Assembly: GCF_001908725.1 (NCBI RefSeq)
Contig: NZ_CP018725.1
Coordinates: 4,712,001-4,776,000 of the forward strand
DNA: 64,000 nt
DNA from: Xanthomonas vesicatoria ATCC 35937
GTDB taxonomy: Bacteria; Pseudomonadota; Gammaproteobacteria; Xanthomonadales; Xanthomonadaceae
Direction: 5' to 3'
The translations under genes were made by a program, and so were the position numbers. Each line of letters begins with the position of its first letter. Positions within the stretch are counted from its first letter, which is position 1. The notes under the pieces are model-generated. The model was given only the letters and a program-made list of their open reading frames with translations. It was not told the DNA's origin and ran no database searches. This document shows positions 1-54,582 of this stretch, one piece after another.

Positions 1-660
1 TGCATCACCGGGGAGCCTTCGTCTACCGAGCGTTTGGGCGATCTGTTGCGCGTCGGCCGCCGCGGCAGCCTGTCCGGCAATCTGATCGTCAACGGTGTCC
101 AAGGCCATGTGGCGTACCCGCACAAGGCGCGCAACCCGATCCACCTGGCGGCACCGGCGCTGGCCGAACTGATCGCGCGGCGATGGGACGATGGCTTCGA
201 AAGTTTCCCGCCCACCAGCCTGCAGATTTCCAATATCCATGCCGGCACCGGCGCCAATAACGTGATCCCCGGCGAGCTGCAGGTGGCTTTCAATCTGCGT
301 TACACCCCGCACTGGGATGCGCCGCGTCTGGAGGCAGAAATCACCGCAGTGCTGGATCGCCATGCACTGGATTACAGCGTGCGTTGGCACCGCAGTGGCG
401 AGCCGTTCTATACGCCAGAGGGGCGGCTGCGCAGTGTCGCGCGCGAGGTGTTGGGCCAGTTCGCCGGCGCGCCGCCGGAAGAGAGCACCGGCGGCGGTAC
501 CTCCGATGCGCGCTTCATCGCACCGCTGGGCGCGCAATGCATCGAAGTCGGCCCGGTCAACGCGTCGATCCACCAGGTCGACGAGCATGTGCGCGTGGCC
601 GATCTGGAGGCGCTGCCGTCGCTGTATCGCACGCTTGTCGAGCGCTTGTTGATCGGCTGA
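1..660 (+). CDS. dapE: Succinyl-diaminopimelate desuccinylase, 3' part (5' end outside window)
   Basis: This is the C-terminal part of DapE, the zinc hydrolase that converts N-succinyl-LL-diaminopimelate to LL-diaminopimelate in lysine and peptidoglycan synthesis. The frame is open from base 1, reading [14 protein letters not shown], then a [10 protein letters not shown] stretch and [14 protein letters not shown], all typical of the DapE dimerisation lid. Near the C terminus [12 protein letters not shown] and an HQVDEHV motif supply the conserved glycine-rich loop and the late metal-ligand histidine. About 219 residues are present of the usual 375 or so, so the first 40 percent of the enzyme lies upstream. 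It ends with TGA at 658-660, 72 bases before the asnB leader ORF. Confidence 0.95.
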
Positions 661-732
661 GCGAGCGCGGCGGCGCCGTCGTTGCCGCTGAAACAGTTGC
701 GCCAGCGAAAACGAACGGTTAGCGTCAACTGC

Positions 733-822
733 ATGGTCATCCGCTTCGCCAACCTCAATAACGCCAACCGCAATGCGCTGCGCGCGAATAATCGTGCGCG
801 GCCGATGCGGGTCTGCGACTAG
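733..822 (+). CDS. Asn-rich leader peptide of asnB (29 codons)
   Basis: A short ORF from ATG 733 to TAG 820-822 encodes 29 residues, seven of them Asn at positions 7, 9, 10, 12, 14, 19 and 20, including two Asn-Asn pairs. Such enrichment directly before an asparagine synthetase gene and an intrinsic terminator is the signature of a transcription-attenuation leader peptide. Codons 23-27 overlap the 13-nt segment (800-812) that can pair with the 5' arm of the terminator. No strong Shine-Dalgarno sequence precedes the ATG, so initiation may be weak or the transcript nearly leaderless. An ATG at 773, in frame with asnB, lies inside this ORF in another frame and should not be taken as the asnB start. 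The role is inferred from sequence alone. Confidence 0.72.
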   Translation: MVIRFANLNNANRNALRANNRARPMRVCD

Positions 823-885
823 GCGAAGTACACCCAAACGCCCAGGAATCAGAAAACCCGCATCGGCCGATGCGGGTTTTTTTTT
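800..885 (+). promoter_or_regulatory. asnB attenuator: antiterminator segment and intrinsic terminator
   Basis: The terminator hairpin is a perfect palindrome at 857-876 followed by nine T residues at 877-885. The segment GGCCGATGCGGGT at 800-812 is identical to the 3' arm at 865-877, so it can pair over 13-14 bp with 856-869 and block the terminator. A ribosome paused at Asn codons 19-20 (787-792) would leave 800-812 free and allow read-through. A ribosome reaching the stop codon at 820-822 would cover most of it and let the terminator form. The mutually exclusive pairing is read from the sequence; ribosome-mediated control by Asn-tRNA supply is inference. Confidence 0.72.
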
Positions 886-955
886 GGGCGTCACTTCCAT
901 GCAGCATGCTCGTCCACCGGCCACCCATCCCCGTCGTTTCATCAGGAGTGTTTCC

Positions 956-2650
956 ATGTGTTCCATCTTCGGCATTTTCGGCCTGCAACCCGGCGACGAT
1001 CTGCAGGCCCTGCGCCGGCAGGCGCTGGAATGTTCGCAGCGGCAGCGGCATCGTGGCCCGGACTGGAGCGGCGTGTATGTCGACGCTGGTGCGATCCTGG
1101 TGCACGAACGCCTGGCCATCGTCGATCCGGCCGGCGGCTCGCAACCATTGCTCTCGGAAGATGGGCAGCTGACATTGGCGGTGAATGGCGAAATCTATAA
1201 CCATCGCGAACTCAAGCAGGAGCTGCAGCAGCCATACGCCTTCCAGACCGGCTCAGATTGCGAAGTGATCAACGCGCTGTACCGCGAGGATGCACCGGCC
1301 TCGTATCTCAACCGCCTCAACGGCATCTTTGCGTTCGCACTGTGGGACAAGGCGGCCGGGCGGGTGATCATCGCGCGCGACCCGATCGGCGTGGTGCCGC
1401 TGTACTGGGGACATGATCGGGAAGGCCGCCTGCGCGTGGCCTCGGAGCTGAAATCGTTGGTGGACGACTGCGCCGATGCCGCGCAGTTTCCGCCCGGTCA
1501 CTGGTACGACAGTGCCACCGGTGCCTTGAGCCGCTACTACGAGCGCGCCTGGCGCGAATACGGCGAAGTGGAAGGCGTGCAGGTGCAACTGCAGGAGTTG
1601 CGCGAGGCGTTCGAACGCGCGGTGCATCGTCAGCTGATGACCGACGTGCCGTATGGCGTGTTGCTTTCCGGCGGTCTGGATTCCTCGTTGGTCGCCGCGG
1701 TGGCTGCGCGCTATGCACGGCATCGCATCGAAGAAAACGACACCACCGAAGCATGGTGGCCGCGCCTGCATTCGTTCGCGATCGGCTTGAAAGGCTCGCC
1801 TGATCTTGCCGCTGCCGAGGTGGCCGCCGCCGCACTGGGTACCGTGCATCACGGCTTCGAATACACCTTCGAAGAAGGCCTGGACGCGTTGCCGGAAGTG
1901 ATCCGCCATATCGAAACCTACGATGTCACCACGATTCGCGCGTCCACGCCGATGTTTCTGCTGGCGCGGCGTATCAAGGCGATGGGCGTCAAGATGGTGC
2001 TGTCGGGCGAAGGCAGCGACGAAATCTTTGGTGGGTATCTGTACTTCCACAAGGCGCCGAACGCGCGCGAGTTCCATGAAGAGCTGGTGCGCAAGCTCGA
2101 CGCGCTCAACAACTACGATTGCCTTCGCGCCAACAAGTCGATGATGGCCTGGGGCGTGGAGCCGCGCGTGCCGTTCCTGGACCGCGAGTTCCTGGACGTG
2201 GCCATGCGCATGGATGCCAGCTTCAAGATGATCGACAAAACCAGCACCGGCGCCACGCGGATGGAAAAGGGCGTATTGCGCCAAGCCTTCGCCGGTTATC
2301 TGCCCGAATCGATCCTGTGGCGGCAGAAAGAACAGTTTAGCGATGGCGTGGGTTATGGCTGGATCGATGGACTCAAGGCCCACGCCGCCACGCATGTGAG
2401 CGACCGCGAACTGGCGGCGGCCGACCGGCGTTTTCCGGTCAATCCGCCGCAGACCAAGGAGGCGTATTTCTATCGCAGCCTATTCGAGCAGTTTTTCCCG
2501 AGCCAGGCGGCGGCAGAAACCGTGCCCGGCGGTAAGTCGATTGCGTGCTCGTCGCCGACTGCGATTGCCTGGGACGCGAGTTTTGCCGCGATGGCCGACC
2601 CATCGGGCCGTGCGATTGCCGGCGTGCACGAGCAGGCACTGGCTTCGTAA
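956..2650 (+). CDS. asnB: Asparagine synthetase B (glutamine-hydrolysing)
   Basis: The enzyme makes asparagine from aspartate, glutamine and ATP. The start ATG 956 gives MCSIFGIFG, placing Cys next to the initiator Met as the required N-terminal glutaminase nucleophile, and it has AGGAG at 944-948. The 564-residue length fits E. coli AsnB (554). An N-terminal class II amidotransferase domain (about 1-200) carries the RHRGPDWSG and NGEIYNH motifs. The synthetase domain has the pyrophosphate loop SGGLDSS near residue 240 and the SGEGSDEIFGGY motif. The nearest upstream gene is dapE, but an Asn-rich leader and terminator separate them, so expression is probably attenuated in response to asparagine. 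A GC-rich hairpin at 2667-2701 follows the stop. Confidence 0.96.
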   Translation: MCSIFGIFGLQPGDDLQALRRQALECSQRQRHRGPDWSGVYVDAGAILVHERLAIVDPAGGSQPLLSEDGQLTLAVNGEIYNHRELKQELQQPYAFQTGSDCEVINALYREDAPASYLNRLNGIFAFALWDKAAGRVIIARDPIGVVPLYWGHDREGRLRVASELKSLVDDCADAAQFPPGHWYDSATGALSRYYERAWREYGEVEGVQVQLQELREAFERAVHRQLMTDVPYGVLLSGGLDSSLVAAVAARYARHRIEENDTTEAWWPRLHSFAIGLKGSPDLAAAEVAAAALGTVHHGFEYTFEEGLDALPEVIRHIETYDVTTIRASTPMFLLARRIKAMGVKMVLSGEGSDEIFGGYLYFHKAPNAREFHEELVRKLDALNNYDCLRANKSMMAWGVEPRVPFLDREFLDVAMRMDASFKMIDKTSTGATRMEKGVLRQAFAGYLPESILWRQKEQFSDGVGYGWIDGLKAHAATHVSDRELAAADRRFPVNPPQTKEAYFYRSLFEQFFPSQAAAETVPGGKSIACSSPTAIAWDASFAAMADPSGRAIAGVHEQALAS

Positions 2651-2666
2651 CGCAGGTTTCAAGGGC

Positions 2667-2701
2667 AGCGGCCGGCGCGCGCCCACGCATTGCCGGCCGC
2701 T
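2667..2701. terminator. GC-rich hairpin between convergent asnB and beta-helix gene
   Basis: AGCGGCCGGC at 2667-2676 is the exact inverted complement of GCCGGCCGCT at 2692-2701, with a 15-nt loop. It sits between convergent stop codons at 2650 and 2717. No long T tract follows on either strand, so it may act as a weak bidirectional terminator or an mRNA 3'-end stabiliser. Confidence 0.5.
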
Positions 2702-2716
2702 CTCTATCGCCCGTGT

Positions 2717-3769
2717 TTATTGCTCGTGGCGCACGCAATAGCCGTAGCGCTGCGGCTCAATATCTACACCGGCCACATCGGCCTGGTTGTTGCGCCACAG
2801 ATTCGGCTTGAAGTCGGCCGCGGTGCAGTTGGCCGCGCGGTCCACACCGATGGTGTAGGTGAACGGCGTATTGGAGAAACGGTTGTTCTCGAACACGTTG
2901 TCCTGACTCATGCTGTTGTCCCAGCACAGGATTTCCGGCGTGCGGTAGCGAATGGCGCAGGCCAGGAACACGCCGGCCACCTTGTTGCCATCGAACTGGT
3001 TGTTGCTGAAGCGGTTACGTCGCGCATCGGATAGATAAATGCCCTGGCTGCCGTTGCGCTCGAAGCGGTTGTTACGGATCTCGCTGTCTTCCAGATGTTC
3101 GGTGGTCAACCCGGCCGCCACGTTGTCGTGGATGTAGTTGTTGACCATGGTGACCTTGGCCGTGCGGTTGAATGACACGCCGTCCCAGATTGCGCCGGAG
3201 ACATCGTTGTTTTCGATGGTGATCTCGCGCGTGTCGTATTCGCTCAACAGGCAGGCGCTACGGCATTTGTTGACCTGTAACCCGGCCAGACGAATGCCCT
3301 GGCCGGAGCGCACCACCACCGCGCTGTTGCTCAGGTATGGGCGCTCGGGCATGAATTCCTTGTCGCCGGTGCTGGCGACGATCTGCATGTCTTCGATGCT
3401 GACATTGCGGATCACGCCGGTCGGCTGCTGGTTTTCGTAGTCGCCTACCACCAGTGCGGGTTGTTGCACGCCATCGGCCATGCGCAGCACCGTGCTCGGG
3501 CCTTTGCCGCGCAGGGTCAGGTTGCCGCGGTGGATCGACACCAGCCCACTCAGCGGAAATTCGCCTTTTTCAAGACACAACACCGACGGCGTGTCGCTCT
3601 GCGGAAGTTTGTCGATGGCCTTCTGCAGATCCTGGCCTGGCTTCACCTTGGCGGTGCAGCTGGCGACAGGCGCATCTGGCGGGCCGGATTTGGCTGGGGG
3701 CGCGGCCGAGCAGGCGGCTGCAAACACCAGGGGTAACAGGGCAGAAACGGAGCGGGCAAGCTGAGGCAT
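2717..3769 (-). CDS. Right-handed parallel beta-helix repeat lipoprotein
   Basis: The 350-residue protein has a lipoprotein-type signal peptide with the lipobox VFAAAC and its Cys near residue 20, so it is probably membrane anchored in the envelope. The body shows the short Asn- and Gly-rich coils of parallel beta-helix (PbH1/NosD-like) proteins, for example TIENNDVSG, VNNYIHDN, IRNNRFERN and FSNNQFDGN. Such folds occur in polysaccharide lyases, epimerases and surface proteins, and I see no catalytic motif that decides between them. Several Cys pairs in the last third may form disulphides. The frame extends upstream of 3769, but the signal peptide marks the true start. Its nearest upstream neighbour on the same strand is a TonB-dependent receptor 290 bases away. 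Confidence 0.85.
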   Translation of the reverse strand: MPQLARSVSALLPLVFAAACSAAPPAKSGPPDAPVASCTAKVKPGQDLQKAIDKLPQSDTPSVLCLEKGEFPLSGLVSIHRGNLTLRGKGPSTVLRMADGVQQPALVVGDYENQQPTGVIRNVSIEDMQIVASTGDKEFMPERPYLSNSAVVVRSGQGIRLAGLQVNKCRSACLLSEYDTREITIENNDVSGAIWDGVSFNRTAKVTMVNNYIHDNVAAGLTTEHLEDSEIRNNRFERNGSQGIYLSDARRNRFSNNQFDGNKVAGVFLACAIRYRTPEILCWDNSMSQDNVFENNRFSNTPFTYTIGVDRAANCTAADFKPNLWRNNQADVAGVDIEPQRYGYCVRHEQ

Positions 3770-52641: not shown

Positions 52642-54582
52642 ATGTGCGGATTGGCAGGAATGCTGCTGGCGTCGCCGCGTCTGCATGGCGAGCAGCTCGA
52701 TGCGCTGGTGCGACCGATGGGCGCGGCCCTGCGCCATCGCGGCCCGGACGATGCGGGCACCTGGTGCGACGCGCAGGCCGGTGTGGCGTTGGCGCACCAA
52801 CGGCTGAGCATTCTGGATCTATCGCCACTAGGCCATCAGCCGATGCGCTCGGCCGACGGCCGCTACGTGCTGGCTTACAACGGCGAGGTCTACAACTTCG
52901 CGCAACTGCGCGCTGCCCTCGCTGCGCTGGGTCACCGCTTCCGCGGGCATTCCGATACCGAGGTGCTGTTGGCGGCGGTGGTGGAGTGGGGGCTGGACGA
53001 CACCCTGACGCGCTGCAACGGCATGTTTGCCATCGCGCTCTGGGACGAGCGCGACAACTGCCTGTTCCTGGCGCGCGACCGCGTCGGCAAGAAGCCGCTG
53101 TACTACGGTTGGGCCGGCGATACGCTGGTGTTCGGTTCCGAACTCAAGGCGTTGTGGCAGCACCCTGACTTCGACAACGGGGTCGATCGCGATGCGCTGA
53201 CCTTGCTGCTGCGGCTGGGCTATATCCCGGCGCCGGCCTGCATCCATGAACGCACCTTCAAGCTGATGCCCGGCCGCGTGTTGCGGGTGGATGCGCAAGC
53301 CGTGGCGGCAGGTGCGGCGGCGCACCGTCCCGACCAGGCGCAACAGCCGTTCTGGAATGCGCGCGAAGCGATGCAGCGCGCGCTGGCAGCGCCGTTCACC
53401 GGCACCGATGCGCAGGCCGAAGAGCAACTGGACAGCGTGCTACGCGATGCGGTGGCGCTGCGCATGGTGGCCGACGTGCCGGTGGGCGTGTTCCTGTCCG
53501 GCGGCACCGACTCGTCCATCGTCACCGCGATGATGCAGGCGCAAAGCAGCCAGCCGGTGCACACCTTCAGCATCGGCTTCGAAGGCTCGCATCACGACGA
53601 AGCGCCGCTGGCGCGCGAAGTGGCCACGCATCTGCACACCGACCACACCGAGCTGTACGTCAGCGGTGCCGATGCGCTGGCGGTGGTGCCGACCTTGCCG
53701 GACATGTTCGACGAACCCTTCGCCGATGCCTCGCAGGTGCCCACCGCATTGGTCGCGCGGCTGGCGCGCGGCGGGGTGACGGTTGCGCTATCCGGCGATG
53801 GCGGCGACGAACTGTTTTTCGGCTATGGCCGCTACCAGCGCGCGCTACGCAACTGGCGCATGCACGGCCTGGTGCCAGGCCCATTGCGCCGCTTGATGGC
53901 GGTGGCGGCGCGCAGCAACGGCGAGTCCTCGCGCACCGGCGGGCTGGCTGCGTTGGTGGCGGAAGCCGGCGCACGCGGAATCGGCGATATCTACCGCAAC
54001 CGCATTTCGCGCTGGCGCGACCCGGCCGCGGTGGTGCTGGGCGCCACCGAACCAGACAGTTTCTACAGCCTGGCCGATCCGTTGCACGGCTCCGGCACCC
54101 CGGCCGACGCGATGATGCTGGCCGACTTCGCGGCGTATCTGCCCGACGATCTGCTGTGCAAGGTGGACCGCACCACCATGGCGGTTGGGCTGGAAGCGCG
54201 CGCGCCGCTGCTGGACTGGCGCGTGGCTGAATTCGCCTGGTCGCTGCCGCTGTCGCTCAAGTACCGCGACGGAGTCAGCAAGTACCTGCTCAAGCGCGTG
54301 CTATGCCGGTATCTGCCCGAGCCGATGGTCTACCGCGGCAAGCGTGGCTTCGGCGCGCCGGTCAGCGCCTGGTTGCGCGGCGATCTGCATGGCTGGGCGG
54401 ACGACCTGCTCGCGCACGGCACCTTGGAGCGTGAGGGCGTGTTCGCTGCCGACGCCGTGGCCGGGCTATGGCGCGCCTTCAACGGTGGCGAACGCAAATG
54501 GCATACGCACCTGTGGACGGTGCTGATGTTCCAGGCCTGGCAGGCGCATTGGCGCGCGCAACGCGCGGCGATGACGCGCTGA
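52642..54582 (+). CDS. Asparagine-synthetase-like amidotransferase, second copy
   Basis: The 646-residue protein begins MCGLAGMLLAS, so Cys becomes the N-terminal glutaminase nucleophile. The amidotransferase domain has RHRGPDDAGTW and YNGEVYNF; the synthetase domain has SGGTDSSIV near residue 286 and LSGDGGDELFFGYGRY. It is longer than and different from asnB at 956-2650, and resembles AsnB/AsnO enzymes of the exopolysaccharide or exosortase-linked group, which amidate sugar or protein carboxylates rather than making free asparagine. No polysaccharide genes lie nearby, so the substrate is open. It follows a GST gene. Confidence 0.9.
   Translation: MCGLAGMLLASPRLHGEQLDALVRPMGAALRHRGPDDAGTWCDAQAGVALAHQRLSILDLSPLGHQPMRSADGRYVLAYNGEVYNFAQLRAALAALGHRFRGHSDTEVLLAAVVEWGLDDTLTRCNGMFAIALWDERDNCLFLARDRVGKKPLYYGWAGDTLVFGSELKALWQHPDFDNGVDRDALTLLLRLGYIPAPACIHERTFKLMPGRVLRVDAQAVAAGAAAHRPDQAQQPFWNAREAMQRALAAPFTGTDAQAEEQLDSVLRDAVALRMVADVPVGVFLSGGTDSSIVTAMMQAQSSQPVHTFSIGFEGSHHDEAPLAREVATHLHTDHTELYVSGADALAVVPTLPDMFDEPFADASQVPTALVARLARGGVTVALSGDGGDELFFGYGRYQRALRNWRMHGLVPGPLRRLMAVAARSNGESSRTGGLAALVAEAGARGIGDIYRNRISRWRDPAAVVLGATEPDSFYSLADPLHGSGTPADAMMLADFAAYLPDDLLCKVDRTTMAVGLEARAPLLDWRVAEFAWSLPLSLKYRDGVSKYLLKRVLCRYLPEPMVYRGKRGFGAPVSAWLRGDLHGWADDLLAHGTLEREGVFAADAVAGLWRAFNGGERKWHTHLWTVLMFQAWQAHWRAQRAAMTR

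Follow-up and report, generated by a model that had tools for sequence, protein, structure and literature searches.

Enterobacterial attenuators include those of the trp, his, leu, thr, ilv and pheA operons (PMC1183508). The element described here lies before asnB in Xanthomonas vesicatoria and resembles them in having a short leader ORF with many codons for the amino acid that is made, in its mutually exclusive antiterminator and terminator, and in the position of the terminator before the first gene. It is unlike them in its amino acid, asparagine, in its target, asnB, in its predicted leaderless leader and in having no consistent 1:2 protector. Nor does it match the enterobacterial leaders in sequence, the best Rfam leader being Thr_leader (RF00506) with 21.5 bits against a gathering score of 55.

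Two alphaproteobacterial systems are also close in design. In the trpL attenuator of Sinorhizobium meliloti (rnTrpL/peTrpL), the 5' end of the transcript coincides with the ATG of the leader ORF and a small leaderless mRNA results, according to PMC7298713. The asnB element shares the start of the transcript at the leader ATG, here a prediction, whereas the S. meliloti system senses Trp rather than Asn and its RNA and peptide also act in trans. The uORFC-8-2 motif upstream of cysS in Rhodobacterales, described in PMC8632094, is likewise a lineage-restricted leader ORF carrying codons of the cognate amino acid, which in that case is Cys, and the controlled gene encodes an aminoacyl-tRNA synthetase.

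The evidence set out below makes it very probable that the asnB element is a ribosome-mediated transcription attenuator sensing charged tRNA-Asn. What this predicted attenuator adds is a known mechanism with a new amino-acid specificity.

The asnB leader of Xanthomonas vesicatoria

The window, meaning the whole stretch of DNA that was analysed, comprises 64,000 nucleotides of the X. vesicatoria ATCC 35937 genome. An earlier note, made from its letters, had proposed an asparagine-responsive attenuator upstream of asnB. The parts of the locus are as follows.

697..702, + strand: predicted -35 box TTGCGC of the attenuator promoter, with TTG at a fixed distance 5' of the leader ATG at most loci
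720..725, + strand: predicted -10 box TAGCGT, separated by 17 nt from the -35 box and by 7 nt from the leader ATG, from the promoter model
733..822, + strand: leader ORF of 29 codons, 7 of them Asn; the A of its ATG is also the predicted transcription start (leaderless)
751..792, + strand: control region with Asn codons 7, 9, 10, 12, 14, 19 and 20, part of an Asn-rich leader found in 170/256 regions
780..799, + strand: hairpin GCGCGCGAATAATCGTGCGC with the Asn19-Asn20 codons at its loop, a candidate segment 1 or pause hairpin, from folding
768..810, + strand: possible protector pairing of 768-772 with 806-810 around the 780-799 hairpin, from folding and uncertain
800..812, + strand: segment 2, GGCCGATGCGGGT, forming the 5' strand of the antiterminator and overlapping the leader ORF at its 3' end, from pairing, position and covariation
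856..868, + strand: segment 3, shared between the antiterminator (as its 3' strand) and the terminator (as its 5' arm plus loop), from pairing and folding
865..885, + strand: segment 4 (terminator 3' arm, 865-877) and the T-run at 877-885, from sequence and fold
944..948, + strand: Shine-Dalgarno-like AGGAG of asnB, such a 4-mer standing at -16 to -5 in 157/168 loci
956..2650, + strand: asnB, the controlled gene, encoding glutamine-hydrolysing asparagine synthase B (869.8 bits to NCBIfam NF006949, cut-off 499)

By sequence inspection, the leader ORF runs from the ATG at 733 to the TAG at 820-822 and encodes MVIRFANLNNANRNALRANNRARPMRVCD. The seven Asn codons are where the earlier note had placed them, and the ORF, whose translation is predicted, has the richness in codons of the product amino acid (7 of 29) that is typical of ribosome-mediated attenuators. 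Typical too are an intrinsic terminator between leader ORF and first gene (853-885), built from the stem AAAACCCGCATC (853-864) / GATGCGGGTTTT (869-880) with a GGCC loop and the run T877-T885, and a mutually exclusive antiterminator that uses the terminator 5' arm, 800-812 pairing with 856-868. The recurrence of segment 2 at 865-877 in the terminator 3' arm had been recognised correctly; its complement ACCCGCATCGGCC is present as well, spanning 856-868 rather than the 856-869 first given, a shift of one base. A thermodynamic fold of 780-890, proposed in the note as a check, gave -55.2 kcal/mol against -38.0 +/- 3.5 for 200 dinucleotide shuffles (z -4.9), and the real sequence folded better than all 200 of them.

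These parts suggest the following course of events. RNA polymerase would begin transcription on the A of the leader ATG or one or two nucleotides away from it, and the 5'-terminal AUG of the leader mRNA would be the loading site of a ribosome. With Asn-tRNA plentiful, the ribosome would pass the Asn codons, reach the stop codon and cover segment 2; segment 3 would then pair with segment 4, the intrinsic terminator would form and asnB would not be transcribed. With Asn-tRNA scarce, the ribosome would stall on the Asn codons and leave segment 2 free to pair with segment 3, so that the terminator could not form and asnB would be read.

Conservation of the leader and its predicted promoter

The asnB upstream regions collected numbered 268, of which 80 came from named loci and 188 from further genomes of the genus, family and order; 12 duplicates were dropped, leaving 256 distinct regions. 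An asnB match was found in 35/35 genus, 106/119 family and 90/151 order genomes, and the sample is without 19 order-level genomes whose asnB is 59-63% identical and without genome G056. An ORF with at least four Asn in 14 codons stands before asnB in 173 of the 256 regions (at least five Asn in 156). Three of these (L060, L065 and L077) lie outside the lineage, look like chance and were set aside, giving 170 regions in which the Asn-rich leader precedes asnB. Leaders of the same kind with only three Asn occur at six more loci (L012, L021, L063, L184, L197 and L244), and in the genome of L191 the leader is displaced upstream (L301). A recognisable leader is absent in L016, L025, L041, L193 and L198 despite an asnB 74-81% identical to that of the window.

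The leader-bearing loci have an asnB at least 67% identical to the window's, and the named carriers include Xanthomonas, Pseudoxanthomonas, Stenotrophomonas, Luteimonas, Thermomonas, Lysobacter, Arenimonas, Dyella, Fulvimonas, Frateuria and Rhodanobacter. The leader was not found at fetched loci with an asnB 59-66% identical or in the fetched members of family f9 (65-69% identical), and among 17 class-level genomes none reaches five Asn in 14 codons, while five reach four. The check by alignment across relatives that the earlier note had suggested turned out well for its proposal: the Asn runs, the place of segment 2 relative to the last Asn codon and the stop, and both helices are conserved in at least two families.

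Two side observations belong here. At L217-L230, members of the same family whose asnB is 62-64% identical have no leader, and there asnB may have been replaced together with its control. AAT accounts for 525 of the 1103 Asn codons in the leaders and for 49 of the 324 in the asnB genes of named leader-bearing loci, despite the high G+C content of these genomes.

A simpler account would be an ordinary terminator of the upstream dapE-like unit next to an ORF that is Asn-rich by chance. The upstream neighbour of the leader is indeed a dapE-like ORF ending at 660, where a terminator would be unremarkable, and ORFs of leader length are common. A like-for-like measure of chance required at least five Asn within 14 codons, in an ORF no longer than 60 aa and within the last 400 nt; 85 of 220 real regions reached it, against a mean of 0.6 of 220 in five dinucleotide shuffles. 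Five in 14 is also reached by Arg in 80, Ala in 62, Leu in 40 and Pro in 30 of the 220 real regions, counts that have no shuffled counterpart and concern residues common in G+C-rich frames. As only Asn was shuffled, the case for Asn rests on the Asn shuffles together with position and conservation, and not on a ranking of residues. Given this chance expectation, the conservation of Asn codons, promoter, repeat and terminator across many genera, and the position of the predicted promoter between dapE and the leader, a chance ORF beside a dapE terminator can for practical purposes be dismissed, and the attenuator remains the preferred reading.

An in-frame ATG precedes the first Asn of the run in 168 of the 170 leaders. 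Upstream of it are a -35 box of the TTG type, a spacer of 17-18 nt and a -10 box that ends 6-7 nt before the ATG. A simple promoter model, written after looking at the loci, fits an in-frame leader ATG in 162/168 loci, with a spacing of 6 or 7 in 158/168, compared with 1/719 other ATGs, 2/168 asnB ATGs and 158/19800 shuffled 45-mers. Among 99 representatives less than about 75% alike, which have 1.6 in-frame ATGs on average, the nearest ATG fits the model in 79 and at least one in-frame ATG does so in 94, and each of these 94 has a pyrimidine at -1. A Shine-Dalgarno-like 4-mer lies within 7 nt of the leader ATG in only 1/168 loci; at -16 to -5 one is found before 21/168 leader ATGs, against 157/168 asnB ATGs. 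Because the -10 box ends 6-7 nt before an ATG that has no Shine-Dalgarno sequence, the leader mRNA is probably leaderless, and it is most natural to place the start of transcription at the A of the leader AUG. Both the transcription start and the translation of the leader are inferred. The promoter-to-AUG arrangement, as read from these loci, is new here and refines the earlier proposal.

Competing helices and the position of the ribosome

A usable terminator call was obtained in 149 of the 170 leaders, the other 21 being without one. In these 149, the bases that follow the last Asn codon pair with the 5' arm of the terminator, with a mean z of -3.4 against mononucleotide shuffles; taken singly, only 101 of the pairings rank in the best 10 of 200 such shuffles, and many of the Lysobacter type are weak. 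In 147 of the 149, a gapless core of at least five bases pairs with bases of segment 3 that segment 4 also uses, a few of these cores being evidently misplaced. The antiterminator strand lies directly behind the last Asn codons in nearly all leaders analysed.

Alignment A1 was drawn from 72 mutually diverse members of the 147; 70 of them (L027 and L200 being left out) plus the window make up its 71 sequences. Antiterminator cells are paired in 76.5% of cases, against 26.1-38.6% when the strands are slid, and terminator cells in 95.1%, against 19.9-50.8%. The antiterminator has 56 cells changed on both sides where shuffling gives 27.8 (0/500), and a covariation of 0.157 where shuffling gives 0.093 (0/500). 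Two other counts for this helix are not above shuffling, namely pairs changed on both sides (8 versus 6.6, 68/500) and pair types (17 versus 17.1, 339/500). Its outer four pairs are often broken and its core (columns 60-65) is mostly kept.

The antiterminator pair 62:129 is G-C in 65 of the 71 sequences, A-U in 6 and broken in none. The same segment 3 base takes part in the terminator pair 129:147, which becomes U-G in five sequences and U-A in one. Since 62:129 is unbroken where 129:147 is U-G, segment 2 tracks segment 3 even where segment 4 settles for a wobble. The asnB tree of this group requires six changes of the segment 2 base; in the first tree, which included a wrongly translated row (L150), at least five of them fall on well-supported branches. 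The tree rows have the segment 2/segment 3 bases A-U in 12 cases and G-C in 15, with L322 and L327 (arms GGCCTGC) assigned by eye. A test by independent pairs, in which L322 and L327 were misread, gave three pairs on well-supported branches, all concordant and too few for significance. Compensatory changes, which the earlier note had named as support for its proposal, are found in the covariation at 62:129 and in the asnB tree.

The helices also bear on whether the Asn-rich nascent peptide itself, by stalling or signalling, could control asnB, instead of codon-dependent ribosome position and RNA switching. Within Xanthomonas the peptide shows good conservation, and its tail is typical of the lineage (RARPMRVCD, ASLPRAGD, GWAGV or RWRARA). 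This tail, however, overlaps the RNA-pairing segment and varies by lineage, whereas the Asn codons and the pairing are shared, and the codon change between PRAGD and PQAGD matches a change in the terminator arm. Control by the peptide is therefore extremely unlikely.

The effect of ribosome position on the asnB leader RNA was modelled by folding. In a decision-point model, transcription has reached only the end of segment 3 and the ribosome is represented by masking positions -15 to +12 relative to the A site; the model covers 64 of the 72 representatives, eight being left out. The mean probability of pairing between segments 2 and 3, P(2:3), is 0.94 at the best Asn codon (above 0.8 in 60/64) and 0.11 at the stop codon (below 0.2 in 55/64, at least 0.2 in 9/64). 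It is 0.74 at the last Asn codon and falls to 0.49, 0.16 and 0.03 over the next three codons, and in 56/64 the last codon that still permits the pairing is found between -1 and +2 codons from the last Asn. When the full leader of the window is folded, only A-site positions between codon 9-10 and codon 18-20 favour the antiterminator (three footprints), a stretch that contains four or five of the seven Asn codons, depending on the footprint. The stall/stop behaviour of ribosome-mediated attenuators is thus seen in the folding model at the decision point and, at full length, in the window and a minority of leaders. In these models a stall at Asn would free the antiterminator strand and a ribosome at the stop would cover it, as had been proposed.

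Full-length equilibrium folding gave a different picture. Without a ribosome, 61 of the 71 representatives form the terminator, and a stall at Asn is enough to flip it in only 17; the core was evidently misassigned in five of the 71 rows, and L186 was skipped. Folding of this kind was dropped as a general proof of switching, and in most lineages the switch would have to be kinetic because the flip at equilibrium is so rare. Of the his/thr/leu-type logic that the earlier note had invoked, the stall geometry stands in folding models; a 1:2 protector hairpin is uncertain, and in the window it is predicted only with the whole leader folded (without a ribosome, P is 0.95 for the full-length RNA and 0.00 for RNA that stops after segment 3).

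RNA that carries no ribosome already adopts the antiterminator at the decision point in most representatives, with a mean P(2:3) of 0.75 (below 0.5 in 13/64), and the best Asn stall exceeds it by more than 0.3 in only 15/64. The arrival of the ribosome at the stop codon therefore appears to be the main terminating event, and poor translation of the leader would also give read-through. Together with the predicted leaderless start, this could mean that the element senses leader translation in general, for example leaderless initiation or stress, and not asparagine specifically. Against this, no residue is more frequent than Asn in the last 30 leader codons (21.8%), and asparagine is the product of the enzyme that asnB encodes. 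A general translation sensor is accordingly very unlikely, and attenuation through charged tRNA-Asn would still be the function of the leader.

Specificity, asparagine supply and meaning for the family

Searched against 60 family genomes, a covariance model built from A1 gave 42 matches scoring 49 bits or more, in 41 of them; some of the 41 supplied sequences to the model and match by construction. Upstream of asnB lie 41 of the 42; the remaining one (G056) is on another contig, and asnB there starts at a contig end. The 19 genomes without a match comprise 7 with no asnB match, 8 with an asnB 63-64% identical and no leader, 3 with divergent leaders (G038, G089 and G067) and 1 with none (G037). 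Among lower matches, 14 stretches were examined; three are ilv leaders (L288, L292 and L295 with 42.2, 36.4 and 35.1 bits), one is a divergent Asn leader (L296), and the others looked at are seemingly gene ends with terminators.

The three ilv leaders are branched-chain leader ORFs (e.g. ILVLVLITS) of family genomes, with terminators before ilvC (L288) and ilvD (L292, L295). They share with the asnB element the order of leader ORF, terminator and gene, and differ in their Ile/Leu/Val codons and in the genes that follow.

Rfam gave only sub-threshold matches in positions 1-3000 of the window (11 up to E 5), with no T-box riboswitch among them and Leu_leader (RF00512) at 21.0 bits against a gathering score of 50; no Rfam family reached its gathering score in six relatives. 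Three leader peptides were compared with protein families: Pfam gave no match to any of them, and NCBIfam matched one at chance level (BID domain, 11.8 bits against 45).

The literature searched, which excludes most subscription papers, yielded no Asn leader or attenuator, in agreement with the earlier note, which knew of no well-characterised one. Vitreschak et al. (2004) reportedly surveyed proteobacterial attenuators; their article is outside the literature searched, and an earlier mention of Asn is possible there. The available parts of PMC8632094, PMC1262725, PMC3771888, PMC2965389, PMC1183508, PMC7298713, PMC3766115 and PMC11857589 contain no Asn leader, and a word search of the accessible part of PMC3744752 gave no mention of one. 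Going by these searches, asparagine is not known as a sensed amino acid in this class of attenuators and would be new to it.

The genome encodes an asparaginyl-tRNA synthetase (AsnRS, 627 bits) and has no match to gatB or asnA. Charged tRNA-Asn should therefore depend on free asparagine, and asnB expression would be expected to rise in vivo when asparagine is scarce. A second asparagine-synthase-type gene lies in the window at 52642-54582 (TIGR01536, 470 bits against a cut-off of 267); it also resembles XrtA-system amidotransferases, directly follows a short ORF and has no leader. Because of this gene, asnB may not be the sole source of asparagine. As a separate observation, seven family members (G036, G041, G045, G070, G072, G080 and G087) have no asnB match at E 1e-150.

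We see an even chance that much of the order controls asnB by a leaderless Asn-codon attenuator whose untranslated state is read-through in most lineages, and whose RNA of about 150 nt may act in trans like rnTrpL. If read-through is the default, the loading of ribosomes on the 5'-terminal AUG would be what turns asnB off. The 170 natural variants, mostly with a fixed spacing from promoter to AUG, form a series for the coupling of leaderless initiation and attenuation. If the proposed mechanism is true, asparagine would become one of the few amino acids that ribosome-mediated attenuation is known to sense, and would do so in a lineage to which Xanthomonas, Stenotrophomonas and Lysobacter belong; asnB would be tied directly to the charging of tRNA-Asn in a genome with no match to GatB or AsnA.
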